A DNA stretch of 45,126 nt, from positions 1-45,126 of the forward strand of contig NZ_CAMLHX010000031.1 in NCBI RefSeq assembly GCF_946479965.1, given 5' to 3'. A program made the translations under genes and the position numbers. The stretch's first letter is position 1, and each line of letters begins with the position of its first letter. Below are positions 8,778 through 35,543 of the stretch, piece by piece. Source of the DNA: an uncultured Mucilaginibacter sp. (lineage in GTDB: Bacteria; Bacteroidota; Bacteroidia; Sphingobacteriales; Sphingobacteriaceae). Below the pieces are notes generated by a model. That model made no database searches. It had not been told where the DNA came from and was given only the letters and a program-made list of their open reading frames with translations.

Positions 8778-8989
8778 GTTTCAAAAGCGTTTCATTTTGG
8801 AACACAAACACTACCAGTTTACAATTATCTGTAATACAGCTCTCTACAACACTTTTACAGCTAAATTTCCTGACTTATAAGTAGTTTCAAAGTGTTTCAC
8901 TCAAAAAATTAAACAGCTTACTATCAAATACTTATATAAAAAAGCGTTTCATCCGTTTCACGTGTGTTATATTCTGTGTGAAACGGAAC
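8778..8989. repeat. Hexamer-iterated 3'-end element, copy A (GTTTCA type)
   Basis: GTTTCA occurs on the plus strand at 8778, 8789, 8884, 8894, 8946 and 8955, followed by one inverted copy (TGAAAC) at 8979-8984. Steps within pairs are 11, 10 and 9 bp; the gap from second to third pair is 52 bp. CCGTTTCAC (8953-8961) and GTGAAACGG (8978-8986) form a 9-bp inverted repeat that spans the stop codon of threonine aldolase. The block TTTACAGCTAAA at 8855-8866 is shared with copy B. See copies B and C. Confidence 0.8.
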
Positions 8990-10007
8990 ACCTTGCTAAA
9001 GAGCATAAAACCCCAACAGCATAATCTATCTGTTCCGGGTCCACATCCAGATGCAGCACAAAACGTATGCGGTTGGGCGCGGTAGCCATGGCCTTAACAC
9101 CCCAGACAGTCAGCAGCTCAATTACAGACGAGGCGGGTTGAACGGTATCAAATAACACAATGTTGGTCTCAACCGGCATCACGCTGCTTACCCACGGGCA
9201 TTGTGCAAGGGCTTCGGCAATTATACGTGCGTGGGCATGGTCTATCTTCAACCGCTCTACATGATGATCTAAAGCGTAAATACCCGCCGCCGCCAGAAAG
9301 CCCGCTTGCCGCCAGCCACCACCCAAAACCTTGCGTATGCGCCTGGCTTGTTTAATAGTCTCCCTATCAGCCAACAGAACCGACCCCACCGGCGCTCCCA
9401 ACCCTTTTGATAAACAAACAGAGATACCGTTGAAGTATTGGCCATAGTCGGCAGCGCTATCGCCGGTATGCGCAAGGGCATTAAAGAGTCGGGCGCCATC
9501 CAGATGCAGCTTAAGTCCGCGAGAGCGGCAGAGGTCAGCAATGGGCTTTATTTGCTCCAATGTATAGCAACTGCCTCCGCCGCGGTTGCTGGTGTTCTCC
9601 AGCACCACCAAGCTGGTACGTGAGTAATGAATGTTATCGGCATTGATCTCGGGTTCTATCATCTCGGCAGTAATGAGCCCGCGGTAACCATTAAGCAACC
9701 GTGCAGACACGGCTGAGTTGAACGCTATACCTCCGCCCTCGTAACGGTACACATGCGCGGTTTGGTCGGTTATAAGCTCATCCATGGGCTGGGTGAAGCA
9801 CTTAATGGCTATCTGGTTTGTCATGGTACCTGATGGACAAAACAGGCCAGCCTCCATACCGAACATGGCAGCGGCTTTTTCCTCTAATTGGCTAACGGTT
9901 TCATCCTCGCCAAACACATCGTCACCAACTTTGGCGTTTAACATGGCCTGTAACATACCCGGTGTGGGGCGGGTAAGGGTATCGCTTCTTAAATCAACGG
10001 TCATCAT
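8967..10007 (-). CDS. ltaE: Low-specificity L-threonine aldolase
   Basis: PLP-dependent enzyme of 346 residues that cleaves L-threonine or L-allo-threonine to glycine and acetaldehyde. N-terminal motif VDLRSDTLTRPT, DDVFGEDETV, the PLP-binding LHLDGARLFNA and the Schiff-base lysine in CLSKGLGAPVGS mark the family. It starts with ATG at 10007; a second ATG follows at once. The last seven residues (CSVSHRI) are encoded by the inverted arm of repeat element A, so the native C-terminus was probably replaced when the element arrived. It is divergent from the exported protein gene at 10048 with a 40-bp gap. Confidence 0.93.
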   Translation of the reverse strand: MMTVDLRSDTLTRPTPGMLQAMLNAKVGDDVFGEDETVSQLEEKAAAMFGMEAGLFCPSGTMTNQIAIKCFTQPMDELITDQTAHVYRYEGGGIAFNSAVSARLLNGYRGLITAEMIEPEINADNIHYSRTSLVVLENTSNRGGGSCYTLEQIKPIADLCRSRGLKLHLDGARLFNALAHTGDSAADYGQYFNGISVCLSKGLGAPVGSVLLADRETIKQARRIRKVLGGGWRQAGFLAAAGIYALDHHVERLKIDHAHARIIAEALAQCPWVSSVMPVETNIVLFDTVQPASSVIELLTVWGVKAMATAPNRIRFVLHLDVDPEQIDYAVGVLCSLARCSVSHRI

Positions 10008-10047
10008 ATATCAAATATGCTTAAAATTACGTTATTTGTGTTTTAGT

Positions 10048-10743
10048 ATGATACGCCACATTACAACCTTTATATTATTCAGCCTACTAAGCATTAGCGC
10101 CATTGCCCAAAAATGGCAGCAAGGCTATTTTTACGATAAGCGGGGCGCAAAAAACGTAGGCTATATCAGCCAAAACCCATCAGGCAAGGGCCCCCTAAAA
10201 AACGAGGCCTTTATTGAATTTAAAGAGTACGAAAAGGACAAGCCCATTAAGCTAAGCGCCAGCGACATGAAGTCGTACGTGGTAGGTCGCGATAGCTTTA
10301 TTGTGGCCATATCCCTTACCGACGATTGGGCAAGTGAGCAGATGGATTTTATCCGCGTAGCTATAAATGCTCCCCTAAAATTATACATGGCAAGGGTTGG
10401 CAACGTAAATGCACAGCAAAAAGCGGTATCGGTAAGCCCGGCCTTGAGCACTGGTTACGGTAGCGGCGGCATGGGTGCCGGCGTTGGCGGCGGCGTAGCC
10501 ATTAACTTGGGCCGCAACCGCGGTGGTGGTGGCACGCACATAAGCTATTTCTATGGCGAAAGCACCAACGGCATGAAAGCCATAACCCCCGAAAACTTTG
10601 TTGACGTGATGATAGAAGTGATGGGTGATGAACCCGCAGCTGTTGAACAATTAAGAAGCGGTAAAGTGGGCTTGAAGGATATTGAGAAGATAATTGCCTA
10701 TTATCATTCCTTGCAGGACGAGCGCAGCAGGCGCAGCAACTAA
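10048..10743 (+). CDS. Exported protein of unknown function, glycine-rich centre
   Basis: A 231-residue secreted protein. ATG 10048 gives a signal peptide (MIRHITTFILFSLLS...AIAQ). An upstream extension to 9784 would run through the antisense of threonine aldolase and is rejected. The mature part starts KWQQGYFYDKRGAKNVGYI, has a central Gly-rich segment (about 135-170, GYGSGGMGAGVGGG) and ends with an Arg/Ser-rich tail (LQDERSRRSN). I do not recognise a family with certainty. Its stop overlaps the stop of the convergent flavoprotein by 3 bases. Confidence 0.75.
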   Translation: MIRHITTFILFSLLSISAIAQKWQQGYFYDKRGAKNVGYISQNPSGKGPLKNEAFIEFKEYEKDKPIKLSASDMKSYVVGRDSFIVAISLTDDWASEQMDFIRVAINAPLKLYMARVGNVNAQQKAVSVSPALSTGYGSGGMGAGVGGGVAINLGRNRGGGGTHISYFYGESTNGMKAITPENFVDVMIEVMGDEPAAVEQLRSGKVGLKDIEKIIAYYHSLQDERSRRSN

Positions 10744-11954
10744 AGGTTTTGAGCGATAACAAAGCCGCTTGCCCAGGCCCACTGAAAATTGTATCCGCCC
10801 AGCCACCCTGTAACGTCAACGCACTCGCCACCAAAGAACAGGCCTGGCACTTTCTTAGCTTCCAACGTTTTTGAGTAGAGTTCGTCAGTTGATACGCCGC
10901 CGCGCATAACTTCGGCTTTATCGTAACCCTTATCGCCGGCAGGCTTTACCTTAAAATTATGGATGAGGTTGTGGATACTCTCGAGATCCGTTTTACTTAG
11001 TGATGCCAGGTTTTTATCAACAGGTAAATGATCGCTCAGCGCCTCAACAAACTTGCGGGTGTATAGCGTAGTAAGGAAGTTTAGCAGCATTTTTTTGCCG
11101 TTTACTGTTCGTTCTTCTTGTATAAGTTGGCCTATATCCCTATCCGGTAACAGATCAATATAAATAAACTCCCCCGGCCGCCAGTAGGATGAGATTTGCA
11201 AAATGGCCGGGCCGCTAAGGCCCCAATGCGTAAACAGAATATTCTCATCAAAGCTGGCCCTATCGTTCCAAACCCGGCAAAAAATGCTGTTGCCCGACAG
11301 CTGCTCATACCAAGGCTGATCTTTGCCTGTAATGGTTAGGGGCACAAGGGCAGGCGCTGTGTTGACAATATTTAAGTTGAACTTACGCGCAGTACGCAAG
11401 CCAAAATCAGTTGCGCCCATTTTAGCTATGGGCAGGCCGCCAGAGGCGATAACTACCTTGGATGCGGTAAGTTCCACTTCCTCGCCATAGCTTTCATAAA
11501 CTACTTTAAAGCCATCAGCAGTTTGCTCAATCTGCTTAACATCTGCATTGCATTCTATTTCCTGACCGAGATCCTGGCACAGATCGGTAAATACTTTAAC
11601 CACATCGCGCGCCTTATCGCTCTCCGGGAAAAGCTGACCCAAGGTTTTTTCTTTGCCGGTTATGCCGTAGGTTTCAAAAAAACTAATGGTATCGTCAACC
11701 GTCCACTGCGCAAAAGCCGACTTTACAAAATGCTCGTTCTCGCTAATAAACTGTTGGTCTGTAGTGTAAAGATTGGTGTAATTGCAACGTCCACCGCCGC
11801 TGATCAATATCTTGGCGCCTACCTTGTCGTTCTTTTCCAGAATAAGCGTTTGTTTACCTAAAAAACCAGCCTGAACAGCGCACATCAATCCGCATGCGCC
11901 ACCGCCGATAATTATAGCATCAAAATGGGTTTGTTTTATTAATTTTGCAGACAT
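10740..11954 (-). CDS. FAD-dependent flavoprotein, HI0933/BaiN family
   Basis: A 404-residue cytosolic flavoprotein. The FAD-binding Rossmann motif IIGGGACGLMCA is at about 13-24, followed by GAKILISGGGRCNYTN, the family signature. Near the C-terminus VMRGGVST and GLFFGGECVDVTGWLGGYN are the characteristic closing FAD contacts. The family (YhiN/BaiN) has few characterised members and the substrate is unknown. The start ATG is chosen at 11954: it lies just before the Rossmann fold and shares bases with the nuoA start on the other strand (CATG). Upstream starts would run antisense through nuoA. Confidence 0.92.
   Translation of the reverse strand: MSAKLIKQTHFDAIIIGGGACGLMCAVQAGFLGKQTLILEKNDKVGAKILISGGGRCNYTNLYTTDQQFISENEHFVKSAFAQWTVDDTISFFETYGITGKEKTLGQLFPESDKARDVVKVFTDLCQDLGQEIECNADVKQIEQTADGFKVVYESYGEEVELTASKVVIASGGLPIAKMGATDFGLRTARKFNLNIVNTAPALVPLTITGKDQPWYEQLSGNSIFCRVWNDRASFDENILFTHWGLSGPAILQISSYWRPGEFIYIDLLPDRDIGQLIQEERTVNGKKMLLNFLTTLYTRKFVEALSDHLPVDKNLASLSKTDLESIHNLIHNFKVKPAGDKGYDKAEVMRGGVSTDELYSKTLEAKKVPGLFFGGECVDVTGWLGGYNFQWAWASGFVIAQNL
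11940..11947 (+). promoter_or_regulatory. Candidate nuoA -7 promoter box
   Basis: TAATTTTG matches the Bacteroidetes -7 consensus TAnnTTTG exactly and ends 5 bases before the nuoA ATG, so a transcript from it would have almost no leader. It lies inside the first codons of the flavoprotein on the other strand. I saw no matching -33 TTTG at the expected distance. Confidence 0.45.
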
Positions 11955-12570
11955 GGGTGAAGTTTCGCAAATATCAGAATTTGGCAAGATACTTATCTTT
12001 TTAATTGCGGGAATAATTATGGTATGCGTTGGCTTTTTGGCCAACCGCGTTTTATCTACCAATAAACCAAATCCCGTCAAGCTCTCTTCGTACGAATGCG
12101 GTGAAGAACCAACAGGTAATGCCTGGTTGCCGTTTAACCCACGGTTTTACGTTATAGCGCTGGTTTTCCTGTTGTTTGATGTGGAAATGGTGTTCATTTT
12201 CCCTTGGGCCACGGTATTCGGCAATCACGAAATTATAGCTGCTGCACCTAATTGGGGTTGGTTCTCGTTAGCAGAGATGTTTATATTTTTAGGCATACTG
12301 ATATTAGGCTTGGTTTACGTATGGGTAAAAGGTGATCTGGATTGGATTAAGCCAAACCCTGTCGTACCCACTACCAACGTCAACATTCCCGCATCGTTGT
12401 ATGAAAAAGTAAACCTGCAGCAAAGCGCTTATCTTGTTAAAAAGTTTGGAGCGGAACCTGTTGTTATGGAACCTTTAGCCACCGTAACAACCGAAAAACC
12501 GGTAAGTGAGACACCCATAAGAAAGCCTATGTTCAAACCTACCTTTAAAAAACCTGCAAGCGATGAGTGA
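11953..12570 (+). CDS. nuoA: NADH-quinone oxidoreductase subunit A
   Basis: Membrane-arm subunit of respiratory complex I. The three helices lie at about 10-30, 68-90 and 105-125, with the conserved [20 protein letters not shown] loop and acidic residues in [16 protein letters not shown]. At 205 residues it is far longer than a usual NuoA (about 120): the extra 70 residues (about 137-205) are a Pro/Val/Lys-rich tail ([15 protein letters not shown]) of unknown role. The stop overlaps the nuoB start by 8 bases, so both are translated together. The start codon shares bases with the divergent flavoprotein start. Confidence 0.95.
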
Positions 12571-13042
12571 TCTAAATAACGAGGGCGGTGGTTTTGTAGT
12601 TACCAAATTGAACGATCTGCTTAACTGGTCGCGGTTATCATCAGTATGGCCGCTGCAGTTTGGTATAGCCTGCTGCGCCATCGAAATGATGGCCTCGTAT
12701 GCTTCAACTTATGATCTGGAGAGATTCGGTGTCTTTCCGCGTGCTTCAGCACGCCAGGCAGATGTTATCATTATAGCCGGTACTGTTACCTTTAAAATGG
12801 CCGAACGCATTAAACTTTTGTATGAACAAATGCCCGAGCCTAAATATGTTATTTCAATGGGATCATGCTCCAATTGCGGCGGCCCATATTGGCAGCATGG
12901 TTATCATGTAGTGAAGGGTGTTGATCGGGTAATTCCGGTTGATGTATATGTGCAGGGCTGCCCACCCCGCCCTGAGGCATTGATTGGCGGTATATTGGAG
13001 CTGCAAAAGAAAATTGAAGGGGAACAACTCATCAAAATATAA
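12563..13042 (+). CDS. nuoB: NADH-quinone oxidoreductase subunit B
   Basis: Peripheral-arm subunit of complex I (159 residues) that holds the terminal iron-sulfur cluster N2. All four ligands are visible: the tandem cysteines in [10 protein letters not shown], Cys in MGSCSNCGG and Cys in VQGCPPRPE. It overlaps the nuoA end and its TAA shares the A with the next ATG, so it is in a tight operon with the membrane protein gene that follows, not with nuoC as in most bacteria. Confidence 0.97.
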
Positions 13043-13515
13043 TGTACAACCTAAGCAATTACAAAAAACACGCCTTAAAAAACATCCTTTGGGTGGGTTT
13101 TTTGGTTGGCACGTTGGATGGACTTGCGGCTTTACTACTTAATTACAACGTCGGTCCGGCACCGATATTCAAATTTATAGCAAGCGGCGTGTTCGGTCCA
13201 GACGCATTCAAGGGCGGCACCGAAATGGTTGTGGCGGGCATTGTGTTTCATTACCTCATTGCTTATTTGTTTACAACAGCTTTTTATCTACTATATCCTT
13301 TCAGCCTATCATTGTTAAAAAACAAGTATGTTGTGGCCAATGTTTACGGTGGGATAACATGGCTTTTTATGAATATGATCGTGGTACCGCTAAGCAAGAT
13401 CGGCCCGCATGATTTTAAAGCGTTTGCTGTTGTTAAGGCTTTGTTGGTATTGATAATTTGTATAGGGTTACCTATTGCTCTGATAGCGGATAAGAAGTTA
13501 CACGCAGACAGATAG
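13042..13515 (+). CDS. Conserved four-helix membrane protein
   Basis: A 157-residue inner-membrane protein with four predicted helices (about 12-32, 66-92, 98-120 and 130-150). Conserved-looking motifs are KNILWVGFLVGTLDGLAALL, KFIASGVFG and GGITWLFMNMIVVPLS. It resembles the YagU/DUF1440-type of small membrane proteins, but I am not sure of the family and know no function. It begins on the last base of nuoB, so it belongs to the nuoAB transcript; a link to complex I is not implied. Confidence 0.75.
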   Translation: MYNLSNYKKHALKNILWVGFLVGTLDGLAALLLNYNVGPAPIFKFIASGVFGPDAFKGGTEMVVAGIVFHYLIAYLFTTAFYLLYPFSLSLLKNKYVVANVYGGITWLFMNMIVVPLSKIGPHDFKAFAVVKALLVLIICIGLPIALIADKKLHADR

Positions 13516-13565
13516 CACAATTACCTATATTTTTTGAAAGATTTAGGGTAAACTTGCAATTGGAA

Positions 13566-14705
13566 ATGAAAACATTTTACGGAGACCTTAAACTCGGCAT
13601 TTTAGGCGGCGGACAATTGGGCCGCATGCTGATACAACAGGCTATAAATTATAACGTTACGGTTAAAGTACTCGACCCTGATCGAGAAGCTCCTTGCCGC
13701 AAATTATGTGATGAGTTTGTGGTAGGCGCACTAAACGATTATCAAACAGTTTACAACTTCGGCAAAAAGGTTGACCTGCTAACAATTGAGATTGAGAAAG
13801 TTAACGTGGACGCCCTTGAGCAGTTAGAGAAAGAAGGCGTATTAGTTTATCCACAGGCACGTGTTATCCGGTTGATACAGGATAAAGGCCTGCAGAAGCA
13901 ATTCTTTAAACAAAACGATATCCCCACTGCCCCGTTCCAGGTAATTTCTTCGCCTGCAGAATTGGAGCAGATCAGCATGCCTTTTCCATTCATTCAGAAG
14001 TTAAGGCGAGATGGTTATGACGGCCGTGGCGTTTATAAGGTGGTTGATAGATCGTATTTAAAGGAAGCATTTAAAGAGCCCAGCCTAATTGAGCAGTGGA
14101 TAGATTTTGAAAAAGAACTAGGTGTAATTGTGGCGCGTAATGAAAGCGGCGACATCAGCGCCTTCCCGATGGTGGAGATGGAATTTAACCCGGATGTTAA
14201 CTTGGTTGAGTTTCTCATCACCCCTTCTACCCTTCCATTTGAAATACATCAGCAAGCTGAAAACATCGCCAAAAAAATAGCCGACGACCTAAAAATTGTG
14301 GGCCTGTTAGCGGTTGAAATGTTTTTAACCAAAGACGGCCAGATATTGGTAAACGAATTGGCACCGCGCCCACATAACAGCGGTCACCAAAGTATTGAGG
14401 GTAACGTAGTATCGCAGTTTGAGCAACACTTACGCGCGATATTTGACCAACCGCTTGGTGATACCGCCTGCCTTAACAATGCCATAATGGTTAACGTTTT
14501 AGGCGAAGAGGGCCACGAAGGACCGGCAGTTTACCAGGGAATTGAGAAAATATTAAAATGCCCCGGCGTATACGTACATTTATATGGCAAAGCTTTAACC
14601 AAGCCTTACCGTAAAATGGGACATGTTACCATAATTGACGCAGACCGTGAAAAGGCTATTGAGAAGGCGAGGTTTGTGCAGAAGACTTTAAAAGTTATTA
14701 GTTAA
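13566..14705 (+). CDS. purK: N5-carboxyaminoimidazole ribonucleotide synthase
   Basis: ATP-grasp enzyme of 379 residues that carboxylates AIR with bicarbonate in de novo purine synthesis. The N-terminal Rossmann motif LGILGGGQLGRML is at residues 9-21; ATP-grasp features include PFIQKLRRDGYDGRGVY (about 135-151), IEQWIDFEKELGVIVAR and NELAPRPHNSGH (about 265-276). I start it at ATG 13566; a TTG at 13554 would add four residues. It sits between nuoAB and its pathway partner purE, which follows after one intervening gene. Confidence 0.96.
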   Translation: MKTFYGDLKLGILGGGQLGRMLIQQAINYNVTVKVLDPDREAPCRKLCDEFVVGALNDYQTVYNFGKKVDLLTIEIEKVNVDALEQLEKEGVLVYPQARVIRLIQDKGLQKQFFKQNDIPTAPFQVISSPAELEQISMPFPFIQKLRRDGYDGRGVYKVVDRSYLKEAFKEPSLIEQWIDFEKELGVIVARNESGDISAFPMVEMEFNPDVNLVEFLITPSTLPFEIHQQAENIAKKIADDLKIVGLLAVEMFLTKDGQILVNELAPRPHNSGHQSIEGNVVSQFEQHLRAIFDQPLGDTACLNNAIMVNVLGEEGHEGPAVYQGIEKILKCPGVYVHLYGKALTKPYRKMGHVTIIDADREKAIEKARFVQKTLKVIS

Positions 14706-14726
14706 GATTTTTAAGCTCGCTAATTA

Positions 14727-15395
14727 ATGAACCTAAAATCGGTTGTCGTTTTACTTAACTTTCTGTTGATATCGATAACTGCCTTTGGGCAATATACTTA
14801 TATTCAAAAACTAGGTAGTATTGCTACTGTTGCGTTACCAGATACGCCTAAATTGGTTGATGCAGAGGGCATTAAGCAGTATGTAGCAGTTAATGAAAAC
14901 GGAGTAGTTTTTCAAGCGGCTTTCGTACATGTAAATAAGGGCTTAAAAAATATTTTTTCTTCCTCTCGTATCGACTCTTTGTATGTGGATTATTTAAAAG
15001 GGTTTTTACATAGCACTAAAGGTAAACTGATATATAAAGACAAAATTAAAATAAACGGGCATCAAGCCATACAATTCGCTTTTAAGGGAATAGCAAAAGA
15101 TCAAATCATTTACGGACATTATCGTACGGTGCTCTTAGGCGATACATTAGTATCATGCGGAGTTTTATCATCAGACTTGGTGCCTAAAAACGAACGAATT
15201 ATTAAGGCATTTTTTGATACATTTAAGGTAATAAGCGTAGCAGAGTTAGACGAAATTGACGCATCCACTGCTGCGCATAAATTTGGTAGCGCTATAGGAA
15301 TATTAATTGTGGTTGCTATTCCATTAGTTATAGGATTAGCGATCGTATTTCTATTAAGAAAAATAATATATAAAAAACAAAAAAAGCTCCCTTAA
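14727..15395 (+). CDS. Exported, C-terminally anchored protein of unknown function
   Basis: A 222-residue protein with an N-terminal signal peptide ([16 protein letters not shown]...FGQ) and a C-terminal membrane helix (about 190-212) followed by a very basic tail ([12 protein letters not shown]). The middle part would lie in the periplasm and looks beta-rich; no known domain is recognised. It is more AT-rich than purK and purE and lies between them, with 21 bp before it and one base between its stop and the purE ATG. It is probably a lineage-specific insertion into the purKE operon. Confidence 0.75.
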
Positions 15396-15396
15396 T

Positions 15397-15894: not shown

Positions 15895-15919
15895 TCTTGC
15901 TGTTGTCGCCGATGTCTTT

Positions 15920-18280: not shown

Positions 18281-18774
18281 GTTTTGACGGTATCAAACAA
18301 ATATTAACAGATAAATTTGGCGCCGCAGTTATTGTCGGCGAGGAAACGTCGGTTCTGCAACCTGCATTGCTGATAGCTCCTGATCTGATAGCTGGTGTAT
18401 GTTTGGAACTGCGCAATAACCCATTAACCTATTTCGATTTTCTATCATGTCTCACTGGCGTTGATCATGGTGCCGAAGATGGCCGCTTTGAGGTGGTTTA
18501 TCATTTATCATCCATCCCCTATCATTTACAGCTCACTCTAAAAGTGGCCAAGGTGCATGACAGGGCAATCCAAGACCTTCCATCATTTAAAAGCGTAGCC
18601 GATGTGTATCGCACTGCCGAATGGCATGAGCGTGAAGCCTATGACCTGGTAGGGATATTTTTTGAAGGCAATCCCGATCTGCGCCGTATTTTATTGCCGG
18701 ACGATTGGGAAGGTTACCCGTTAAGGAAAGATTATACTAACGCTGAATATTATAAGGGAATTAAGATAGATTGA
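18277..18774 (+). CDS. nuoC: NADH-quinone oxidoreductase subunit C
   Basis: Peripheral-arm subunit of complex I (the 30-kDa subunit family), 165 residues. The family signature EWHEREAYDLVGIFFEGNPDLRR is followed by ILLPDDWEGYPLRKDY. It overlaps pdxH by four bases and ends directly before the left arm of the S23-type element that separates it from nuoD. Confidence 0.96.
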   Translation: MSFDGIKQILTDKFGAAVIVGEETSVLQPALLIAPDLIAGVCLELRNNPLTYFDFLSCLTGVDHGAEDGRFEVVYHLSSIPYHLQLTLKVAKVHDRAIQDLPSFKSVADVYRTAEWHEREAYDLVGIFFEGNPDLRRILLPDDWEGYPLRKDYTNAEYYKGIKID

Positions 18775-18776
18775 TG

Positions 18777-18802
18777 TCGGATTTCGGATGTTCGATTTCG
18801 GA
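18777..18802 (+). repeat. Left arm of 26-bp inverted repeat around S23-type ORF
   Basis: This 26-bp stretch begins 2 bases after the nuoC stop and is a perfect inverted copy of 19235-19260. It is built of repeated TTCGGAT/TTCGAT words. The arms enclose the degenerate S23-type ORF, so RNA could fold the insert into a long hairpin. Confidence 0.9.
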
Positions 18803-18817
18803 TATTTTTATTGAAAG

Positions 18818-19191: not shown

Positions 19192-19201
19192 AATCGAAAT
19201 G

Positions 19202-19297
19202 GAACATTCGAAATTTGAAATAAAAACAAATAATTCCGAAATCGAACATCCGAAATCCGAAATCAAAATAAATTGAACATTCGAAATTCGAAATAAA
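19202..19297 (+). repeat. Three degenerate direct repeats plus right inverted arm
   Basis: Three copies of a unit resembling GAACATTCGAAATTCGAAAT begin at 19202, 19244 and about 19275. The middle copy lies within the right arm (19235-19260) of the perfect 26-bp inverted repeat. The last copy runs straight into the TTG used as the nuoD start. Confidence 0.85.
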
Positions 19298-27261: not shown

Positions 27262-27312
27262 GTGGGCGAATTTCGGAAATAAATTAGTTATTTTTAGATA
27301 AACTAATGTACC

Positions 27313-27960: not shown

Positions 27961-27981
27961 TCAGTCGCATAGGAGGGCCTG

Positions 27982-28081
27982 CTCGCGCTCGTTTACAACG
28001 AGTGCGTAACACTTAACAGCGTTTGCAACGCGATACAATCGCAACCCCACATTAAGCACTCGTTACAAACGAGCGCAAGGT
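27982..28081 (+). repeat. 100-bp four-hairpin intergenic repeat, copy 1
   Basis: It contains four short hairpins in a row: GCGCTCGTT-tac-AACGAGTGC, GCGTT-tgc-AACGC, GCGAT-aca-ATCGC and an end hairpin matching the first in reverse. The outer two are complementary to each other, so a long alternative stem is possible. Copy 2 (30441-30540) has the same length, about 90% identity and the same orientation. It lies between convergent gene ends. Confidence 0.9.
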
Positions 28082-28091
28082 TTACTGGTTG

Positions 28092-29114
28092 TTAGGGCTT
28101 GCTATCTAAAATTGCATCTACAGCTTTTGCAATATCATACAGGTTACCATTCCGTTGGTTAGTTAAGATAATGATGGTTCTGCCTTTGCCTGTGTTTGTT
28201 GTGAGCAACGCCTGATAGTGCATTGCGGTGCCATCGTGTACGTGGGTCGTTATTTTATCTCCCTCCATAGTGCCGCCCCCCAGGCCTGATTGATTATCGG
28301 GCGCAAAGGGAATGAGGATTTGACGTGTAGAAGTTGGATCTATAAGGCGAAAGTTAACTATACATTCCGACCATTTGTAAAAATCGTCTAAATTCAGCGC
28401 CGTCCATCCCGATATTGGAACTGCAAGGCCATCCTGTACAAAACTTTCATTAAATGATTTGGCCATTAACGGTTCACTGTCGGTTGGGTCTACAATACCA
28501 TTGCTGATACCTGCTTTTTTTAGTAAAGTTTGCTGTACAAATTGGGTAAAAGGCATACCTGTAACCTTTTCAATTAGTCGTCTGCGTAAAAAAGTATTGT
28601 TGTTGTTATAAGCGTATTTGCTGCCGGGTTCAAAGTCTAATTGTTGTAAGGACTGAAGGTCTTTCCAATTATCAGCATCGGTATGAACAGTTTTCCATTT
28701 CACCTCTGGCAGACCGCTGGTATATTGTAATAAGTTTTTTATGCTTACTTTTTCCGCCCATGCAGGCAGATCAGGAAAAAACTTTGCTACCTTATCATCC
28801 AGGTTTAGCCTACCTTGTTCCTTAAGCATCATTAATCCTACCGCGTCAAACTCTTTCGCAATTGACCCAATATGAAAACGGTATTGTGTTTTAAGCGGAG
28901 TTTTTTTTGCTGCATCTGCATAGCCAAAAGCCGCTTTTACAATGAGTTTTCCATGGTCTACTACCAATATATTACCATTGAAAGACCCTGATTGAAATGT
29001 TTCGTTTAAATATTTATTTATTGAAAGCGCCTTGTTATTTTGGCCAAATGCGTGGGTACCCATTAAAATTATAGTAAGCAAAACAAGGGTGCTATTTTTG
29101 TAAAATATCTTCAT
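28092..29114 (-). CDS. Exported serine hydrolase, beta-lactamase class C family
   Basis: A 340-residue exported serine hydrolase of the class C beta-lactamase/penicillin-binding family. The signal peptide (MKIFYKNSTLVLLTIILMG...AFG) supports ATG 29114; an extended frame from 29225 runs through intergenic repeat remnants. The nucleophile motif SIAK (HIGSIAKEF), a Tyr-x-Asn motif (YAYNNNN) and a C-terminal HDG (HVHDG) in place of KTG are visible. Such proteins act as peptidases or esterases; true beta-lactam hydrolysis is not implied. It is the second gene of a two-gene unit enclosed by hairpin repeats. Confidence 0.9.
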   Translation of the reverse strand: MKIFYKNSTLVLLTIILMGTHAFGQNNKALSINKYLNETFQSGSFNGNILVVDHGKLIVKAAFGYADAAKKTPLKTQYRFHIGSIAKEFDAVGLMMLKEQGRLNLDDKVAKFFPDLPAWAEKVSIKNLLQYTSGLPEVKWKTVHTDADNWKDLQSLQQLDFEPGSKYAYNNNNTFLRRRLIEKVTGMPFTQFVQQTLLKKAGISNGIVDPTDSEPLMAKSFNESFVQDGLAVPISGWTALNLDDFYKWSECIVNFRLIDPTSTRQILIPFAPDNQSGLGGGTMEGDKITTHVHDGTAMHYQALLTTNTGKGRTIIILTNQRNGNLYDIAKAVDAILDSKP

Positions 29115-29166
29115 AAACGTTCTGTTTACTTTAAGACATAACAATAGTTGCTTTGTTACGCTATTC

Positions 29167-29190
29167 GTGCTCGGCGCAGACGAGGGCAAG
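29167..29190 (+). repeat. Remnant of the four-hairpin repeat
   Basis: GTGCTCGGCGCAGACGAG with GGCAAG after it resembles the 3' end of the 100-bp repeats (CACTCGTCGCAGACGAGCGC, AAGG) with a few changes. It lies between the two genes that the full copies flank. Confidence 0.5.
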
Positions 29191-29199
29191 TTCTTACAT

Positions 29200-30261
29200 T
29201 TACTTCTGCGACGGCATAAACTCAAAAGGCAATAACATGTTAATACGGTAAACGCTGATATTTCCTTTCCATTCTAAGCCTTCGTCGTAATACCCATTTT
29301 TATCAATACTTACTCCCGCGTAGCCATCTTCCTGTTGCAAAAAAGATTCGTTTCCCTTTTTATAGGTGATAAAAACCTCATTTCTATCAAACTTATTCTC
29401 GTCCTTGTCTGCCTCTTTTTTAAGCATGACAAATTTTTGCCCGTCAGAAACCTGAACAATACTATTATAGCCAAGCATGTTTGCAGGATCAAGGTTAACT
29501 TCCTTGTTAGAACTCGCGGCCCCGGCCGGCGTTTTGTACATTAAAAAATTATTTTCCTGTACCTGATCTGCCCATAATGAACGGATAAAGTGCATTCTTG
29601 ATCCAAAATACGCTTCGTCCCTCGCCTTCATAACGGCCTTTACTTTAGCCGGTTTAAGGCCCGCTACATCTTCCGTAAAAAAATAATTCCCTTTGTATTT
29701 TGTTTGTGAAGGGGTGCGACTAAAAGAGGTTAAGAAATAAGTGATCTTATAACCCAGTAGCTTGTTAGTAATAATTAATGGCTTTTCGGTATCGGCGGTT
29801 AGCAGGTCCCTCTTTTTATTATAGCGGAAATAAATTTCATCCTGATTATCTATCACGCAATCTTTGCTATCCTCGCCAATAAACTCCTTCAAAAATACCT
29901 TCATGGCCTTTTCCCTGCTTATCTCATCGCCGCCAATGGTTACCTCTGCCAGTTCAATTACTTTATGTTTTAAGGCGATGTTTAAACTTGCATCCGTGTA
30001 GTTACTTATCTTTTGCGATTCGTAGCCCATGGAACTGACAACAAGCGGAGACTTGGTTTTTATGGTGTTATTTAAAGCGAAATTCCCGGCACTATCAGAT
30101 ACCGTGCCCTGAAAAGTGCCGTCAAAATAAACACTCACCTTGTCTAAGGGCTTGCCTGTAACGGCATCGGTAATTCTGCCGCTTACAACCTGCGCCCGCA
30201 ACACCGTTGGAAGCAGAAGCAAGAGTGTTACTAAGAATTTAAAAGATGCCTTTTGTTTCAA
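29200..30261 (-). CDS. Exported carboxypeptidase-like regulatory domain protein
   Basis: A 353-residue secreted protein. Signal peptide MKQKASFKFLVTLLLLLPTVLRAQ, then a carboxypeptidase-regulatory-like beta-sandwich (about 25-100: VSGRITDAVTGKPLDKVSVYFDG, SDSAGNFAL, SSMGYESQKI), then a C-terminal domain of about 240 residues of unknown fold, found in many Bacteroidetes proteins of this layout. It is not a TonB receptor: no plug or barrel follows. It lies upstream of the serine hydrolase gene on the same strand with an 85-bp gap. Confidence 0.88.
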   Translation of the reverse strand: MKQKASFKFLVTLLLLLPTVLRAQVVSGRITDAVTGKPLDKVSVYFDGTFQGTVSDSAGNFALNNTIKTKSPLVVSSMGYESQKISNYTDASLNIALKHKVIELAEVTIGGDEISREKAMKVFLKEFIGEDSKDCVIDNQDEIYFRYNKKRDLLTADTEKPLIITNKLLGYKITYFLTSFSRTPSQTKYKGNYFFTEDVAGLKPAKVKAVMKARDEAYFGSRMHFIRSLWADQVQENNFLMYKTPAGAASSNKEVNLDPANMLGYNSIVQVSDGQKFVMLKKEADKDENKFDRNEVFITYKKGNESFLQQEDGYAGVSIDKNGYYDEGLEWKGNISVYRINMLLPFEFMPSQK

Positions 30262-30440
30262 AATTTTATTTAGCTAAGTATGATTCCCTGAAAAATTGAT
30301 CGCGCTGTAAACTCATTTGAGATTAAAACACATACAAGTATACCGCTTAGACTGCACGTGTAAAAGTAAAGTATACAATGGGTTATAATGTTGCGACTAT
30401 AGGGCAAATTGATGCGACATCGTTTTGTTATGCCATGCTA

Positions 30441-30540
30441 CTCGCGCTCGTTTGCAACGAGTGCGTAACACTTCAAAGCGTTTGCAACGCGATTCAATCG
30501 CTGTCCCACATTAAGCACTCGTCGCAGACGAGCGCAAGGT
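30441..30540 (+). repeat. 100-bp four-hairpin intergenic repeat, copy 2
   Basis: Same orientation and length as copy 1 (27982-28081), differing at about 10 positions. Several differences are on both sides of a stem or in loops, so all four hairpins are kept. It lies upstream of the carboxypeptidase-like gene, in a 323-bp gap that otherwise holds only AT-rich sequence. Confidence 0.9.
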
Positions 30541-30584
30541 CATATCCTAATAAATCATATCATTTTATTACGCTTTGCTTAATG

Positions 30585-31325
30585 TCAATCAGCTTTTTCC
30601 TTGCGCTTAAGGCGCAAAAATGTTTTATGGATCTTGGTCCGGAAAATATCATAAAACATAACAAAAGCGAGGATGGCCGCGGGAATAAAAAACTCATTCA
30701 AGCCAAAATAACGATACAGATAAGCTGCTGATACGCATCCGAAGAAAAAGAAAAATATAATGACCAGGCGCAAGGATATGCGCTGGCGCAATGGACTCAT
30801 GTCCTCAGCGGCGTTGCTTTGTATTATTGCCGATAGGTCAATGCCCAGATCGGTAAATATCCCGGTTAAATGCGTGGTGCGCACCACCGAGCCCGAAACC
30901 ATAGAAACCATGGCATTTTGCAGCCCCATAGCGAACAATAAGCTACCGGCCAGCAAACGCGTGTTTACTACCGATGGACGCATATTGGTGCCATAAATAG
31001 CCACAAATAACAATATGGCTATCTCTATACATATAGATATGGTGTAGGCGAAGCGTTGCTCCTTACCCACCCTGCGGATAATAAAACTGGATACAAATGC
31101 ACCCGCCAAAAACAGGATCATCCACATGCCCACGGTGCGTGCGTCTGTAAAATCGCCTGCCGCCAGCTTCTCGGCAAAGAGCGCTACGTGGCCCGTTACA
31201 TTGGTAGTAAGCACATAAAATGATAAAAAACCGGCACCATTAACAAAGCCAGCTGTTAGGCACAAAAGCGCTGCCAACCGCAGATTGTGCGCGTAGGTGC
31301 GATATTTGCCTGTGTGGTGTAACAT
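30585..31325 (-). CDS. DUF1275 (YoaK-like) membrane protein
   Basis: A 246-residue inner-membrane protein of the DUF1275 family with about six helices. Family features: CLTAGFVNGAGFLSFYVLTTNVTGHV at the N-terminus (about 21-46), and MGLQNAMVSMVSGSVVRTTHLTGIFTDLGID (about 135-165). Function unknown. The window between its start and the next gene (31326-31657) holds element B. Confidence 0.92.
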   Translation of the reverse strand: MLHHTGKYRTYAHNLRLAALLCLTAGFVNGAGFLSFYVLTTNVTGHVALFAEKLAAGDFTDARTVGMWMILFLAGAFVSSFIIRRVGKEQRFAYTISICIEIAILLFVAIYGTNMRPSVVNTRLLAGSLLFAMGLQNAMVSMVSGSVVRTTHLTGIFTDLGIDLSAIIQSNAAEDMSPLRQRISLRLVIIFFFFFGCVSAAYLYRYFGLNEFFIPAAILAFVMFYDIFRTKIHKTFLRLKRKEKAD

Positions 31326-31438
31326 GTTGAATTATTGCGATCGGATCAGTACCTGATGCGAATAGATGTTCTGGTTTTAATGTAAGTATACTGAAAATCA
31401 CACAGCTTTCAAAGGTCGATAACTGCTGCGGCATAGCT

Positions 31439-31645
31439 GTTGCAAGCAAAGTGTAAAATTTCCTGATATTGAATACCTTTATAATCAAAGTCTTACAATG
31501 CTTTTACAGCTAAAATTCATAACGAATAAGTCTGTTGCAAAGTGTTGCATGTTTAGACTTATAATATTTGCAAAGTTTTAATCACCAAACACTTACAAAA
31601 AACAGTGTTGCAAGTGTTGCAAAGTGTTGTATATATTTCTGCAAC
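31439..31645. repeat. Hexamer-iterated 3'-end element, copy B (GTTGCA type)
   Basis: GTTGCA lies on the plus strand at 31439, 31534, 31544, 31607 and 31616, then a variant GTTGTA at 31626, then the inverted copy TGCAAC at 31640-31645. Steps are 10 and 9 bp in the pairs. The first-pair to second-pair distance is 95 bp, as in copy A; the second-to-third gap is 63 bp instead of 52. TTTACAGCTAAA (31503-31514) and AACGAATAAGT are shared with copies A and C. It ends 12 bp from the DUF3810 stop codon. Confidence 0.78.
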
Positions 31646-31657
31646 AGCAATCAGTAT

Positions 31658-32731
31658 TTACCGCTTATACCAGTTTACCAGCAACAGCACCATTTGGTTA
31701 TAGGTATCCATACCCATGGGCTGGTTATTGGCCTTTAAAAAGTCGTTATAAAGCATGCCGCTAAGCAGTCCCGCTTTACCGCGAAAGGAGAACCAATAGT
31801 AGCGTTCGGCTATAAAATCGCCCCTAACCTTTTGGGAAATGTGGGTTTTCAGTTCGTTACTGATCAGGGTATCGCGGCGGCGCATAGACTGCATGCACTC
31901 CCCCAACGCTAACTGGTATGCAGAGTAACGTAGCAGCCGGTCGCGCGAGTTTATACCCGCCAAAAAGCCGGCAAAATTGGCCTCATCCTCGGCGCCAAAT
32001 CCCGTTTGATGAGAAAGCTCATGGCAAGCCACAACCGGGCGCGCAAAAACCGGCATCTGGTAGTTTATCTGCGCTTCGCCGGTAAAAGGGTTATAATAGC
32101 CTGACGTTGTGAGATAGTTAATAACAGGCGTAAGCAGAGACGATTTTATCCCGGGATAGTAAGTTCGGAAGTTAGCTGAATCGGCAGAAAGCTTTTTTAT
32201 AGCCGACAGGGCATTGCCGTAAATTTGTTGGTTGGTTTGCAGCGTGTCTTCGTGCTTTAATCGCATGCGGGTGACGTTGGCGCTATCAATAATTGCGCAG
32301 GTAACGGCTTCCAGGTCGGCGGCGGTGAATGCTGTATCGCGCAGGTTAAGGCGTTCCGCTGCCGAGGGGCGATAGTAGTTCATCCCCCAAAACAAATAGA
32401 ATATAACATAGGCAGCCTGTATGCCAATGATCAATCCTAACAAAGCCCTGCCTATTACCTTAAACCTGCCTTTAAACAGCAGGTAAATGAGGCGGCCAAC
32501 CAAATAAATTAGATATAAAATAACAGCCGAGTAAAGCACATCGCCAAAGCTTAAGGGAAGAATATTTAAAACGGGATGCAGCACATAGCAAACGCCCACA
32601 TAAAAACCCCGAGAGTAATAGCGCTCAACTACAGCCGGGTAATTAGTAAGCACATTAAGCAGGCAAATAACCAAAGCCAGACCGGCAATGGCAATAAGTC
32701 GCTTTACAAATGGGTTTAGCTTACGTGGCAT
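31658..32731 (-). CDS. DUF3810 membrane protein with HExxH motif
   Basis: A 357-residue protein with three N-terminal helices (about 8-30, 50-75 and 90-115) and a large outward domain carrying ACHELSHQTGF, an HExxH zinc-protease-like motif, followed by GAEDEANFAGFLA, where the Glu could be the third ligand. This matches the DUF3810 family of putative metalloproteases; activity is unproven. ATG 32731 gives MPRKLNPFVKRL; a longer frame from 32803 runs through a terminator hairpin and is rejected. It runs into element B at its 3' end. Confidence 0.88.
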   Translation of the reverse strand: MPRKLNPFVKRLIAIAGLALVICLLNVLTNYPAVVERYYSRGFYVGVCYVLHPVLNILPLSFGDVLYSAVILYLIYLVGRLIYLLFKGRFKVIGRALLGLIIGIQAAYVIFYLFWGMNYYRPSAAERLNLRDTAFTAADLEAVTCAIIDSANVTRMRLKHEDTLQTNQQIYGNALSAIKKLSADSANFRTYYPGIKSSLLTPVINYLTTSGYYNPFTGEAQINYQMPVFARPVVACHELSHQTGFGAEDEANFAGFLAGINSRDRLLRYSAYQLALGECMQSMRRRDTLISNELKTHISQKVRGDFIAERYYWFSFRGKAGLLSGMLYNDFLKANNQPMGMDTYNQMVLLLVNWYKR

Positions 32732-32770
32732 TAGCACAAATATAGGTTTGTGTATCCAATGGGCACAAAA

Positions 32771-32798
32771 AAAGCGTCCCGATAACTCGGGACGCTTT
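32771..32798 (-). terminator. Rho-independent terminator of the DUF2911 gene
   Basis: A 12-bp stem (32771-32782 with 32787-32798) and TAAC loop followed on the minus strand by a T-run. It lies 20 bp past the DUF2911 stop and before the DUF3810 start. The core CCGATAACTCGG is the same as in the terminator at 22981-23010. Confidence 0.9.
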
Positions 32799-32817
32799 CT
32801 CACAAATTTAATTGTAG

Positions 32818-33381
32818 TTATTTTATGCTTACAGGTACTTCAGTATTTTCCCATATCAAAGAAAAACCTGTAGGGTTGATAACATACTTTAAACTCTCAA
32901 CGGCGTACCATCTCTGTAAACGGTCAGTAGCAGTTGCTGTTTTAGCTTTAACTGTAGCCTCTAGCACATTCTTCGCAGGGTCTGCATTAGCCACGCCACC
33001 TTGCTTAATACCCCATTGGCCTACCTGCGAGTTAAATACTATTTTCCACTCGCTTTCGCCCGGCATAGCGAAAAAGGTGTATTTGCCGGCCGGCAGCTTT
33101 TTGCCTTCTATCATTATGTCCTTATCAGTAGTAAATACGGTGGCCTGGTTAGCTCCGGCGCGCCATAGTTTACCATAAGGCTCTAAACCGCCAAATATTT
33201 TACGTCCATTTACTGAGGGGCTGCCATAATTAATGCTGATGGTAGCACCGCCTACTTTAGCGCTAACACTGTCGCGCGGACTTGCTTGGGGCCTGCCGCC
33301 TTGTGCAAACGCGGATGATGACATTAAAAATAAAGCAAATGCAAAACAAGCAGCTGCTGTAAATTGGAATACTTTTTTCAT
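32818..33381 (-). CDS. DUF2911 family exported protein
   Basis: A 187-residue exported protein with a signal peptide (MKKVFQFTAAACFAFAL...AFAQ). The DUF2911 pattern is clear: ISINYGSPSVNGRKIFGGLEPYGKLWRAGANQAT, then KLPAGKYTFFAMPGESEWKIVFN. DUF2911 proteins are common in Bacteroidetes, and their function is unknown. It is monocistronic with its own terminator. Confidence 0.93.
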   Translation of the reverse strand: MKKVFQFTAAACFAFALFLMSSSAFAQGGRPQASPRDSVSAKVGGATISINYGSPSVNGRKIFGGLEPYGKLWRAGANQATVFTTDKDIMIEGKKLPAGKYTFFAMPGESEWKIVFNSQVGQWGIKQGGVANADPAKNVLEATVKAKTATATDRLQRWYAVESLKYVINPTGFSLIWENTEVPVSIK

Positions 33382-33602
33382 GGTTTCTTCTTAAGCTTAA
33401 TATTGATTGTAACAAATATAAATTAAAAACTTGGTGCTGCTAATATAACTGATTAGTTAGTAAACGCCGATTTTTTAAAAATATGTTAAATTTTAAAAAC
33501 TAAATATTACGGTGCTTTGTTTATGTTTCTGACTTGCATTGCAGTTAGGAATTGACCGTAAGGTTAACCATACCCTAAGGTTAAACAATTGTTGTGAGTT
33601 GG

Positions 33603-33628
33603 CCCTTGCCGTGAGGCAGGGGTTTTTT
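33603..33628 (+). terminator. Orphan terminator in a divergent intergenic region
   Basis: CCCTTGCC (33603-33610) pairs with GGCAGGGG (33615-33622, one G-T pair) and is followed by six Ts. It lies between two divergent genes (32818-33381 on the minus strand and 33689 on the plus strand), so no annotated gene ends there. It would close a short leader RNA or small RNA made from about 33480-33600. The rest of this 307-bp gap holds two copies of TAAGGTTAA near 33560-33583 and AT-rich sequence. Confidence 0.7.
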
Positions 33629-33688
33629 GTTTCTTGTTTATTTTGCGATGGCATAGCAATAGACCATTATTATACTTTAATTTGAAGC

Positions 33689-35338
33689 ATGAAAAAACAG
33701 GAAAAGCTGTTTTACGTGCTTTTTATAATGCTTGCCTTTGTCGTTAATGTTAGCGGCATTAACCTCGCTTTTTTTACTGATGACCCCGGCCTGTATGCCG
33801 CCATCGCTAAAAACATGCTGTACAGACATGATTGGCTATCGTTATATAGTTACGGACAGGATTGGCTGGATAAACCCCATTTTCCGTTTTGGATGGCGGC
33901 TGCCAGTTTTAAACTGTTTGGTATAAGCGCCTGGGCGTACCGCCTGCCTGCTCTGCTGTTTTTTACCTTGGGACTGTGGTACACTTACCTTTTAGGCAAA
34001 AAATTCTATACACAGGAGATTGCGTTTGTGGCTGTGCTGATTGTGCTTGCATCGCAGTACGTTATAATGAGCAATACAGACGTGCGCGCTGAGCCGTACT
34101 TAATGGGCCTTATAACCGGGGCCATTTACCACATAACCGGACTTAACGACCGCTTTAATTATAAGGACCTGCTACTTGCCGCACTGCTAACTGCCTGTGC
34201 GGTTATGACCAAAGGGATATTTGTTCTGGTGGTTATTTATGGCAGTTTGCTGGGGCAACTCATTTTTCAGAAAAGGTTTGCAGAGGTGTTTTCTATAAAA
34301 TGGATAGGCTTGTTCTTGCTTACCTTGCTTTTTACCCTGCCGGAGCTGTATGCTTTATATATACAATTTGATCTTCATCCCGGGAAAACTGTTTTTGGCA
34401 GGCAAGGCGTATCCGGCATAAAATGGTTTTTGTGGGACAGCCAGTTTGGGCGCTTTGTAAACAGCGGGCCCATCAGTCAGCAAAAATCAGGCGATGTATT
34501 CTTCTATGTACATACCCTGCTTTGGGCGTTTGCTCCCTGGTGTTTGTTATTTTACTTCGCTTTGTATAGCCGCATATGCGGGATTATAAAAGGGGAAAAA
34601 CAAGCCGAGTATTACACCCTTGGCGGTGGCCTGCTTTTGTTGCTGTTGTTTTCGCTGTCGCGATTTCAATTGCCGTTTTATACAAATATCCTGTTTCCGC
34701 TGTTTGCCTTAATTACCGCGCCTTACTGCTTTGAACGCCTAAATGTTTGGGGCAGCCGCATAAGGATTATATCGTGGTGGTTATACATCGCGGCTTTCAC
34801 CCTAGGAGTATTCGCTATCAACTACTTTTTAAACATCAGCAGCTATGTGTTTTTGACCGTTGTTTGTGTGCTGTATTTTGCCTTGATATCTTATATAACA
34901 AATAGGGTTAAAAACGCGGTAAAGACTACTTTTTTTATCGCTGTCACAGCCGCGCTCTTTGCCAACTTTTATATAAACAATACCGTTTATCCTATACTTG
35001 GCTATTTTAACGGACAAATAGCCGCGGCGAAATATGTAAACCAGCCCAAGTTTAAAAGTTACAAAATATACTCCCTCAAACAACAAAACAACGTCTTCCA
35101 GTTTGAGTGCAACAGGCCGGTGGGCTATATGCCCCTGGAAAGCTTAAAAGGATCGTTGCCCGCAAACGCCATCTGCTACGCTAACCAGCAATCGGTTGAC
35201 TATCTACGGCAGCAAAATATTCCCTTCGAAATATTAGGTCTTTTCCCCAACTATCCGCAGGAGCGGATACTGCCAGCCTTTGTTAATGCAGCAGAACGGA
35301 ATACCGTGTTAGATAAGGTCTACCTCATTAGCAAGTAA
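33689..35338 (+). CDS. ArnT-like glycosyltransferase (GT39/83 type)
   Basis: A 549-residue membrane enzyme with about 11-12 helices. The first periplasmic loop has the family's acidic motif (FFTDDPGLYAAIAKNML, about 29-45) and DWLDKPHFPFWMAA, which match lipid-linked sugar transferases of the ArnT/PMT fold. They move a sugar from a polyprenyl phosphate to a lipid or protein outside the membrane; the acceptor is not visible. It ends directly before element C. Confidence 0.9.
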   Translation: MKKQEKLFYVLFIMLAFVVNVSGINLAFFTDDPGLYAAIAKNMLYRHDWLSLYSYGQDWLDKPHFPFWMAAASFKLFGISAWAYRLPALLFFTLGLWYTYLLGKKFYTQEIAFVAVLIVLASQYVIMSNTDVRAEPYLMGLITGAIYHITGLNDRFNYKDLLLAALLTACAVMTKGIFVLVVIYGSLLGQLIFQKRFAEVFSIKWIGLFLLTLLFTLPELYALYIQFDLHPGKTVFGRQGVSGIKWFLWDSQFGRFVNSGPISQQKSGDVFFYVHTLLWAFAPWCLLFYFALYSRICGIIKGEKQAEYYTLGGGLLLLLLFSLSRFQLPFYTNILFPLFALITAPYCFERLNVWGSRIRIISWWLYIAAFTLGVFAINYFLNISSYVFLTVVCVLYFALISYITNRVKNAVKTTFFIAVTAALFANFYINNTVYPILGYFNGQIAAAKYVNQPKFKSYKIYSLKQQNNVFQFECNRPVGYMPLESLKGSLPANAICYANQQSVDYLRQQNIPFEILGLFPNYPQERILPAFVNAAERNTVLDKVYLISK

Positions 35339-35344
35339 CAACAG

Positions 35345-35543
35345 GTGTTTCACAAAAATATGAAACACAGGTGAAACGGATGAAACGCTTTTATTCGTAA
35401 TCTCTTTAATATAAGACCTTTGCAATTTCGCATGAAACAGAATGAAACTACTTATTCGTCAGTAAGTTTAGCTTCAAATATTACACAAACCACTTATTAT
35501 CAACTAATTGTCAAATAGTAGTTTTTTGATTGAAACGTGAAAC
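35345..35543. repeat. Hexamer-iterated 3'-end element, copy C (GTTTCA type, reversed)
   Basis: On the minus strand GTTTCA occurs at 35538-35543, 35531-35536, 35443-35448, 35433-35438, 35381-35386, 35372-35377 and 35361-35366, with the inverted copy at 35347-35352. Steps are 7, 10, 9 and 11 bp, and the gap from the second to the third pair is 52 bp, as in copy A. GTGTTTCA/TGAAACAC (35345-35352 and 35361-35368) form an 8-bp hairpin that starts 7 bp after the glycosyltransferase stop. Confidence 0.8.

Follow-up and report, generated by a model that had tools for sequence, protein, structure and literature searches.

What are three intergenic arrays of iterated hexamers doing in the genome of an uncultured Mucilaginibacter sp.? 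The arrays, which we call elements A, B and C, lie in a 45,126-nucleotide stretch of contig NZ_CAMLHX010000031.1 (assembly GCF_946479965.1), analysed here in full and referred to as the window, and they are built from six-letter words: GTTTCA in A and C, and GTTGCA in B, which has G for T at the fourth letter throughout, the inverted word included. A sequence-only reading of the window had proposed that the three share one architecture, and they do. A pattern composed of the conserved block and the first middle word matched the window three times, at A, B and C, and never in 100 dinucleotide shuffles; a word-blind scan, which sought any hexamer repeated at +10, a second pair of that hexamer 45–95 bp on and then its reverse complement, returned A, B and C alone and drew a blank in 150 simulated 45-kb sequences with matched dinucleotide composition (simulation being the control because the motif is symmetric under reversal). 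The aligned elements have a mean column identity of 71%, and a family profile, which includes A, B and C themselves, gives them E-values of 1.2e-28 to 4.1e-33. The three elements are members of a dispersed, noncoding repeat family that is confined to part of the Mucilaginibacter set of genomes, from a group of soil bacteria (genomes, contigs and loci are designated below by G, C and L numbers).

The extent of the family was gauged with the kind of model search of genus and family that the sequence-only reading had proposed. With a sequence-only covariance model built from 29 copies and applied at E up to 0.001, 32 of 149 Mucilaginibacter genomes matched, some by one weak match only; up to 21 candidates were scored per genome, and the counts for each genome are therefore to be read as "at least". 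Of 399 genomes drawn from the family, 8 matched at E up to 1e-5, and all 8 belong to the genus set. A middle-pair pattern matched 11 of the 149 genus genomes (reversed control, 0), of which seven are left once the sole matches of G048, G069, G100 and G139 are set aside as look-alikes (L073, L074, L076 and L082, excluded from the alignments). This pattern counts 44 matches in G107 and 32 in G117, and a right-end pattern counts 46 in G111, 39 in G107, 29 in G117, 23 in G097, 12 in G086, 10 in G038, 7 in G116, 4 in G076, 1 in G135 and 0 in G099 (control, 0). The left end of the G097 type has 42 matches in G097 and none in G038 or G099; three genomes reach at least 42 pattern matches each. A DNA search of 30 Mucilaginibacter genomes with element C gave short weak matches only (best E 9.8e-4), the exact core pattern had no match in viral and genome contigs, and BLAST against plasmids and phages found none. 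In viral contigs the middle-pair pattern occurs in 29, the TGATCC pattern in 24 and a right-end-like match once, and the family profile matches none. One viral contig (L485, 3000-3400) carries three GTTACA words at 9-bp steps and an inverted TGTAAC, about 135 bp upstream of the gene for a terminase small subunit, but has no profile match. The literature listings examined contained no account of this repeat family, and four word-pair strings sought as text matched a single paper, on OmpR.

Copies share a layout that, from left to right, comprises a conserved block with ATAAGT or AAAAGT as its last letters, a pair of words at a 10-bp step (the middle pair), an AT-rich spacer, two to three words at 9–10 bp, about 8 bp and an inverted word, the array length ranging from about 130 to 215 bp across the family. 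More copies exist in related Mucilaginibacter, and their spacing is not random, so that the refutation named in the sequence-only reading (no additional copies, or copies spaced at random) did not materialize: among 71 copies measured of 73, the first right-hand word starts 62–65 bp from the first middle word in 65 and 73–74 bp from it in 6, so that the two arm-spacing classes differ by one helical turn (six versus seven turns), B belonging to the long class. Within the window, word starts bear out the spacings proposed earlier (52 bp between the second and third pairs in A and C and 63 bp in B; 95 bp between the first and second pairs in A and B and 88 bp in C), and a final inverted hexamer is present in all three elements. 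The proposed succession of paired hexamers with 10- and then 9-bp steps holds for the second pair (10 bp) and the third (9 bp) in A, B and C, but fails at the left end, where B has a single word and the first-pair step is 11 bp in A and 7 bp in C. Likewise, the AGCTAAA/AATAAGT block described before the second pair is indeed conserved, although A reads TTATAAGT there and not AATAAGT. The idea that spacing near 10 bp puts the words on one helix face fits the steps of 9–10 bp and arms that are six or seven turns apart.

The regularity extends to G097, in which 30 of 42 pattern-matched loci, chosen by left end only, were read. The middle word starts at an identical position in 30/30 of these loci, the right-hand words follow at 64 bp in 29/30 and the inverted word 33 bp further in 29/30. 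Here the element is a unit of about 130 bp, of near-constant length, with sharp borders (TGAAACAAAA at left and GTGAAACAAAACA at right, TGAAACAAAA recurring in direct orientation at both ends) and random flanks, and every one of the 30 loci contains the complete unit. The ends of the G097 and G111 types are not inverted repeats; G107 and G117 copies have short TTGTTTCA...TGAAACAA ends. Additional words lie to the left in many G107, G117 and G086 copies, and in most of the G111 copies read the left end lacks a word. Some G038, G111, G107 and G117 copies have another left module, GG(T/C)GGC..TAT.TTGTC.G..AT, directly left of the first word (L381, L400, L401, L098 and L103); in the DNA examined it occurs only beside elements (7 matches at 5 places).

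Table 1 Elements A, B and C, their words and their conserved parts in the window.
Feature	Coordinates	Strand	Letters	Details
Element A	8778..8989	+	GTTTCA	words at 8778, 8789, 8884, 8894, 8946, 8955; inverted TGAAAC at 8979-8984
Element A, conserved block	8859..8883	+	AGCTAAATTTCCTGACTTATAAGTA	immediately 5' of middle word pair; aligned with B, C and 26 copies from other genomes
Element A, IHF-type motif	8922..8934	+	TATCAAATACTTA	exact match to WATCAANNNNTTR; in spacer between middle pair and right-hand words
Element B	31439..31645	+	GTTGCA	words at 31439, 31534, 31544, 31607, 31616; inverted TGCAAC at 31640-31645
Element B, conserved block	31508..31533	+	AGCTAAAATTCATAACGAATAAGTCT	match to block-plus-word pattern
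Element C	35345..35543	-	GTTTCA	words with low coordinates 35538, 35531, 35443, 35433, 35381, 35372, 35361; inverted word at 35347-35352
Element C, conserved block	35449..35473	-	AGCTAAACTTACTGACGAATAAGTA	match to block-plus-word pattern

Comparison of copies indicates that the words are the constrained part of the element. Across the 30 G097 loci the pairwise identity of five words is 0.99, 1.00, 1.00, 0.96 and 0.99, as against 0.73 for the third right-hand word and 0.56 for the spacer. We further compared five G117 elements with their counterparts in G107 (four of them identified through flanks; L084 and L098 share flanks). In the 38 words of these five pairs there are 14 changes, every one at word position 5 and every one T in G117 and A in G107, and 0/228 changes at the other six word positions, a comparison to which word loss in G117 is invisible, the words having been chosen on the G117 side; in the spacers, 129 of 832 positions differ. 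In the list of right ends the third word is GTTACA in 21 of the 39 copies from G107, as against none of the 9 listed from G117 (of 29). The changes between the pairs, together with the GTTACA counts, lead us to conclude that words were held locus by locus while one base shifted across the G107 genome.

The word itself, of six or seven letters, comes in several forms. Most copies use GTTTCA, GTTACA or GTTGCA (GTTNCA, usually TGTTNCAY), and a sister class uses TGATCCA; all words with first letter T fit TGWTNCA, which is presumably one base away from the DnaA box. The word-blind scan also picked out elements that have this layout but are built from TGATCC, in L116, in L179 and twice in L133. Where the L098 element sits, G116 (L174) and G099 (L179) hold an element of the TGATCC type and G107 and G117 one of the GTTNCA kind; the gap there is 50 bp in G111, 17 bp in G071 and 43 bp in G077, and unrelated DNA occupies the site in other genomes. 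The two kinds differ in scaffold and so probably inserted separately. A further dispersed repeat, about 250 bp long, lies at L098 (reverse strand) 537-787; it is 95% identical to the copy at G117:C13:37009 and 94% to that at G107:C86:4386, and is missing here in G107.

The spacers between the arms are enriched for WATCAANNNNTTR, which we take to be the IHF consensus. Without mismatch the motif occurs in 0.60 of the 30 spacers from G097 and in 0.17 of the other 52, the frequency in shuffles being 0.011 for either set, and with up to one mismatch in 0.90 and 0.92 (shuffles 0.17 and 0.15), a contrast that is overstated in that the shuffle test ignores the shared ancestry of copies; with two mismatches allowed there is little contrast (1.00 versus 0.79 and 0.75 in shuffles). 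This enrichment points to an IHF-like site between arms of word boxes, the arrangement of a P1-type parS.

Taken together, the arrays fit double-stranded DNA that is read by a sequence-specific protein, bent by an IHF-like one and kept under selection in place. A protein probably sits on the words. The anatomy, rigid spacing, IHF-like motif, distribution and word conservation are observed; a reader of the words, the bending of the spacer and the function of the complex are inferred from them, and we suggest the following mechanism. Each element would be a double-stranded DNA assembly site on which several molecules of one dedicated sequence-specific protein bind adjacent direct-repeat words grouped in two arms, with six or seven helical turns from one arm to the other; the AT-rich spacer between the arms would be bent by a protein of the IHF/HU type, and the bend would bring both arms and the final inverted word into one complex. 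The repeat may first have spread as a non-autonomous mobile element and later been taken into use by the cell, its sites acting like the parS of plasmid P1, with word boxes around an IHF bend, and being scattered like Noc sites. We tentatively favor this reading, in which an exapted mobile repeat now provides scattered partition- or chromosome-organizing sites for a partition- or intasome-like assembly; it is plausible, if short of probable. Its fullest form, a clade-specific network of tens of multi-protein assembly sites derived from a domesticated mobile repeat, whose word drifts genome-wide in step with a DNA-binding protein, one and the same base being rewritten between sister species wherever they share a locus, we regard as rather unlikely.

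Several observations weigh against exapted organizing sites, in addition to the shared ancestry that inflates the IHF contrast. One L084 left-hand word has a 2-base deletion, and left-hand words are absent altogether from many copies. Gene conversion between copies could keep words alike and is the main other route to word conservation, and a block change seen in the L084/L098 pair is suggestive of it. Copies are missing at the same site in other species, and one G107 site retains the right-end palindrome only; since copies can be absent or reduced at shared sites, no single copy is indispensable. Nor was any bias in their position round the chromosome established. The search for a reader protein was negative, the integrase, RAYT (REP-associated tyrosine transposase; REP, repetitive extragenic palindrome) and ParB leads having failed: the main carriers have a single ParB, without the second ParB-family protein that a Noc-like arrangement would entail, and native parS has C at the variable base, unlike the words, and does not share the T-to-A drift of the G107 words.

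The strongest competitor to organizing sites is a purely selfish non-autonomous mobile element, the words being multiple transposase or recombinase sites at its ends, assisted by IHF, as in Mu ends, attP arms or Correia elements, and the conservation of words reflecting recent spread; we consider it only slightly less likely than the exapted reading. The sharp borders, near-constant length and random flanks of the G097 unit are as expected of such an element, as are a clade-limited distribution, copy numbers that differ per genome and the extension of A into the 3' end of a called open reading frame (ORF). Presence and absence at shared sites also favor it. When seven G117 elements were searched by flanks, five could be placed in G107, which was filled at four and held a right-end stub only at one; element 2 of G117C50 is filled in G107 and empty in G076 and G086, and the L098 site varies as described above. 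Presence and absence at shared sites imply gain or loss between species, and therefore that the family also spreads. Against an entirely selfish element, however, the words are kept at shared loci while spacers diverge. Nor did an autonomous copy appear: the 30 of 42 G097 left ends that were read all lead into short elements, and in G112, which has one model match (L079), an ordinary gene lies beside the element and no autonomous copy was found. No target duplication was noticed in flanks inspected by eye, the ends of the G097 and G111 types lack the inverted-repeat form, and no element lies in the integrase loci inspected.

Two classes of enzyme were considered as possible partners and rejected. 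Among loci around Phage_integrase matches in 8 genomes, 0/30 hold an element, a stray word pair being present in L205 (46 matches were listed, 16 of them without a locus). For RAYT proteins, L256 was promising, with an element about 130 bp from the gene, but the gene has palindromes of its own. Y1_Tnp matches occur in carriers and non-carriers and are lacking in the carrier G086; among the 20 Y1_Tnp regions read, an element is present in 7, at a distance of 0.1 to several kb, and in none on both sides. Elements lie within about 2 kb of three more RAYT-like genes (L350, L353 and L354), and the RAYT of L346 is flanked by its own GTTCGAAGTC palindromes, with the element outside on one side. L346 1657-7827 is itself a variable G107 region that holds this RAYT between inverted GTTCGAAGTC palindromes as well as an element, together with what we take to be a reverse-transcriptase-like ORF, a helix-turn-helix ORF and a Mu-transposase-like ORF.

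Improbable, but worth setting beside organizing sites read by a dedicated protein, is that the elements are sites of the chromosomal ParB, the words being parS half sites (TGTTNCAC) in direct repeat. The parS consensus given in the excerpted text of PMC7383237, TGTTTCAC-GTGAAACA, of which TGTTTCAC is one half, is matched both by the words and by the right-end palindrome in its opened form, and the parS of plasmid P1 likewise places its short word boxes, asymmetrically, around an IHF bend site, according to the excerpted text of PMC5016525. Native parS is nevertheless a different sequence, TGTTCCACGTGGAACA, identical between G107 and G117 and present in 12 of the 13 genomes tested, G105 having only sites with one mismatch; two to three exact copies about 40 bp apart occur at one place in most of the 13 genomes (G117:C55:41823-41919, G107:C136:26633-26729 and others). 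The 16-bp palindrome of chromosomal parS, TGTTNCACGTGNAACA, was sought in the elements and rejected: their words stand in direct repeat or in an inverted pair opened by about 6 bp, and canonical parS lies elsewhere. HTH_ParB has one match each in G117, G107, G097, G111, G038, G116, G099 and G076, none in G086 (2.5 Mb, probably incomplete) and two in G112, G073, G124 and G080, which have 1 to 6 model matches each. Because the main carriers have a single ParB and the local parS differs from the words, ParB is not favored; the TGATCCA class, moreover, breaks the parS motif.

Direct repeats with a 10-bp step suit regulators of the OmpR/PhoB type, and the elements might be binding arrays of such a response regulator that spread as movable regulatory modules. 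The middle pair TTGTTACATTTTGTTACAT of many G107 and G117 copies contains GTTACATTTTGTTACAT, the OmpR repeat of Escherichia coli in the excerpted text of PMC5438342. We nonetheless give this possibility little chance, in that there is no promoter bias (only 15 of 57 copies lie between diverging genes), word pairs seldom occur outside elements (of 25 clusters in 845 kb, 21 fall inside and 4 outside) and other copies use GTTTCA, GTTGCA or TGATCCA.

Very improbable is a structured RNA or a DNA hairpin or cruciform, the equivalent hairpins envisaged in the sequence-only reading: a right-end palindrome, TTGTTTCAC-N6-GTGAAACAA, is present and its variable pair is changed on both sides in 4 of 29 sequences, but the same pair is broken in 5 of 29, the right-end stem is mismatched in 30/30 G097 loci, the third right-hand word pairs with the inverted word in 0/30 of them, RNAalifold yields only 11 pairs (8 in the right-end stem, plus a 3-bp stem) with almost no covariation energy, and Rfam has no match in the window at the gathering score, so that the arrays do not fit a hairpin and fit double-stranded DNA instead.

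The window is chromosomal DNA of a Mucilaginibacter-like kind. In it, 19 of 20 ORFs scanned have a Pfam match, mostly to ordinary cell functions; A lies between converging genes, its right end reaching into the 3' end of a lyase/aldolase ORF as called, C also lies between converging genes, and B lies between two minus-strand genes, one of which, encoding a DUF3810 protein, adjoins it. The best relatives of this protein are mainly from Mucilaginibacter, at no more than 63% identity in the best segment, and because 0/54 related DUF3810 loci carry an element (family profile, E up to 1e-4), B is a local feature. Other Mucilaginibacter genomes have, directly following the DUF3810 match, tandem 7-bp repeats (GGTTCAT, CATTGGT and others) that form one arm, with their reverse complement as a second arm further on (L009 5055-5183, L018 11067-11231, L022 11005-11214, L025 11084-11271 and L032 11062-11284), the heptamer differing per locus. 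Across the family, mechanical ORF calls place 17 of 57 copies with both neighbors called between converging genes, 25 between genes of the same direction and 15 between diverging genes (one more copy is too close to a contig end); converging gaps, which account for 26 of the 188 gaps on the contig of G097 and for 20 of the 109 on that of G117, look over-represented among element sites. The window also holds a 103-nt repeat in two copies (27979-28081 and 30438-30540; 89% identical, 2.5 kb apart), a repeat of about 300 nt in three copies (39553-40684; 76% and 73% identical to the first) that overlap three ORFs of 117–130 aa and are probably tandem paralogues, and three direct copies of an AT-rich 28-nt repeat (18771-18812 and 19197-19297), one of which has an inverted match 412 bp away.

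If the elements are indeed scattered organizing sites, they would preserve a history, written by nature, of how a DNA-binding protein and tens of its sites change in concert, and would add a new case of chromosome architecture made from a mobile repeat; how a recognition word can shift genome-wide, every site staying in use, would become testable. Among known systems, Correia elements and similar miniature inverted-repeat transposable elements are also small, intergenic, present in many copies and furnished with an IHF site; the elements described here differ in that no long terminal inverted repeats were seen, in their iterated words and in the conservation of those words at shared loci after speciation. 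REP elements and bacterial interspersed mosaic elements, with their RAYT proteins, are likewise multi-copy intergenic repeats, but our elements have no palindromic REP unit, the nearest RAYT has palindromes of its own and the carrier G086 has no Y1_Tnp match. The attP sites of tyrosine integrases combine direct-repeat arm sites, an IHF bend and an inverted pair with a 6–8 bp gap, as the elements do, but no element lies beside an integrase in the 30 loci inspected. OmpR sites match exactly in the middle pair of many G107 and G117 copies (GTTACATTTTGTTACAT), but the elements are not concentrated at promoters and other clades use other words. Noc sites resemble the elements in being scattered over the chromosome, and chromosomal parS in the half site TGTTTCAC (excerpted text of PMC7383237), yet both are 16-bp palindromes, whereas the elements are arrays of half-site-like words over about 130–215 bp whose variable base does not follow the local parS. 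The parS of plasmids P1 and P7, bound by ParB and IHF, has word boxes around an IHF-type site as the elements do (excerpted text of PMC5016525); it differs in having two kinds of box at a plasmid site, whereas the elements sit on the chromosome in tens of copies and use a single kind of word, for the most part directly repeated, in main carriers that have no second ParB.

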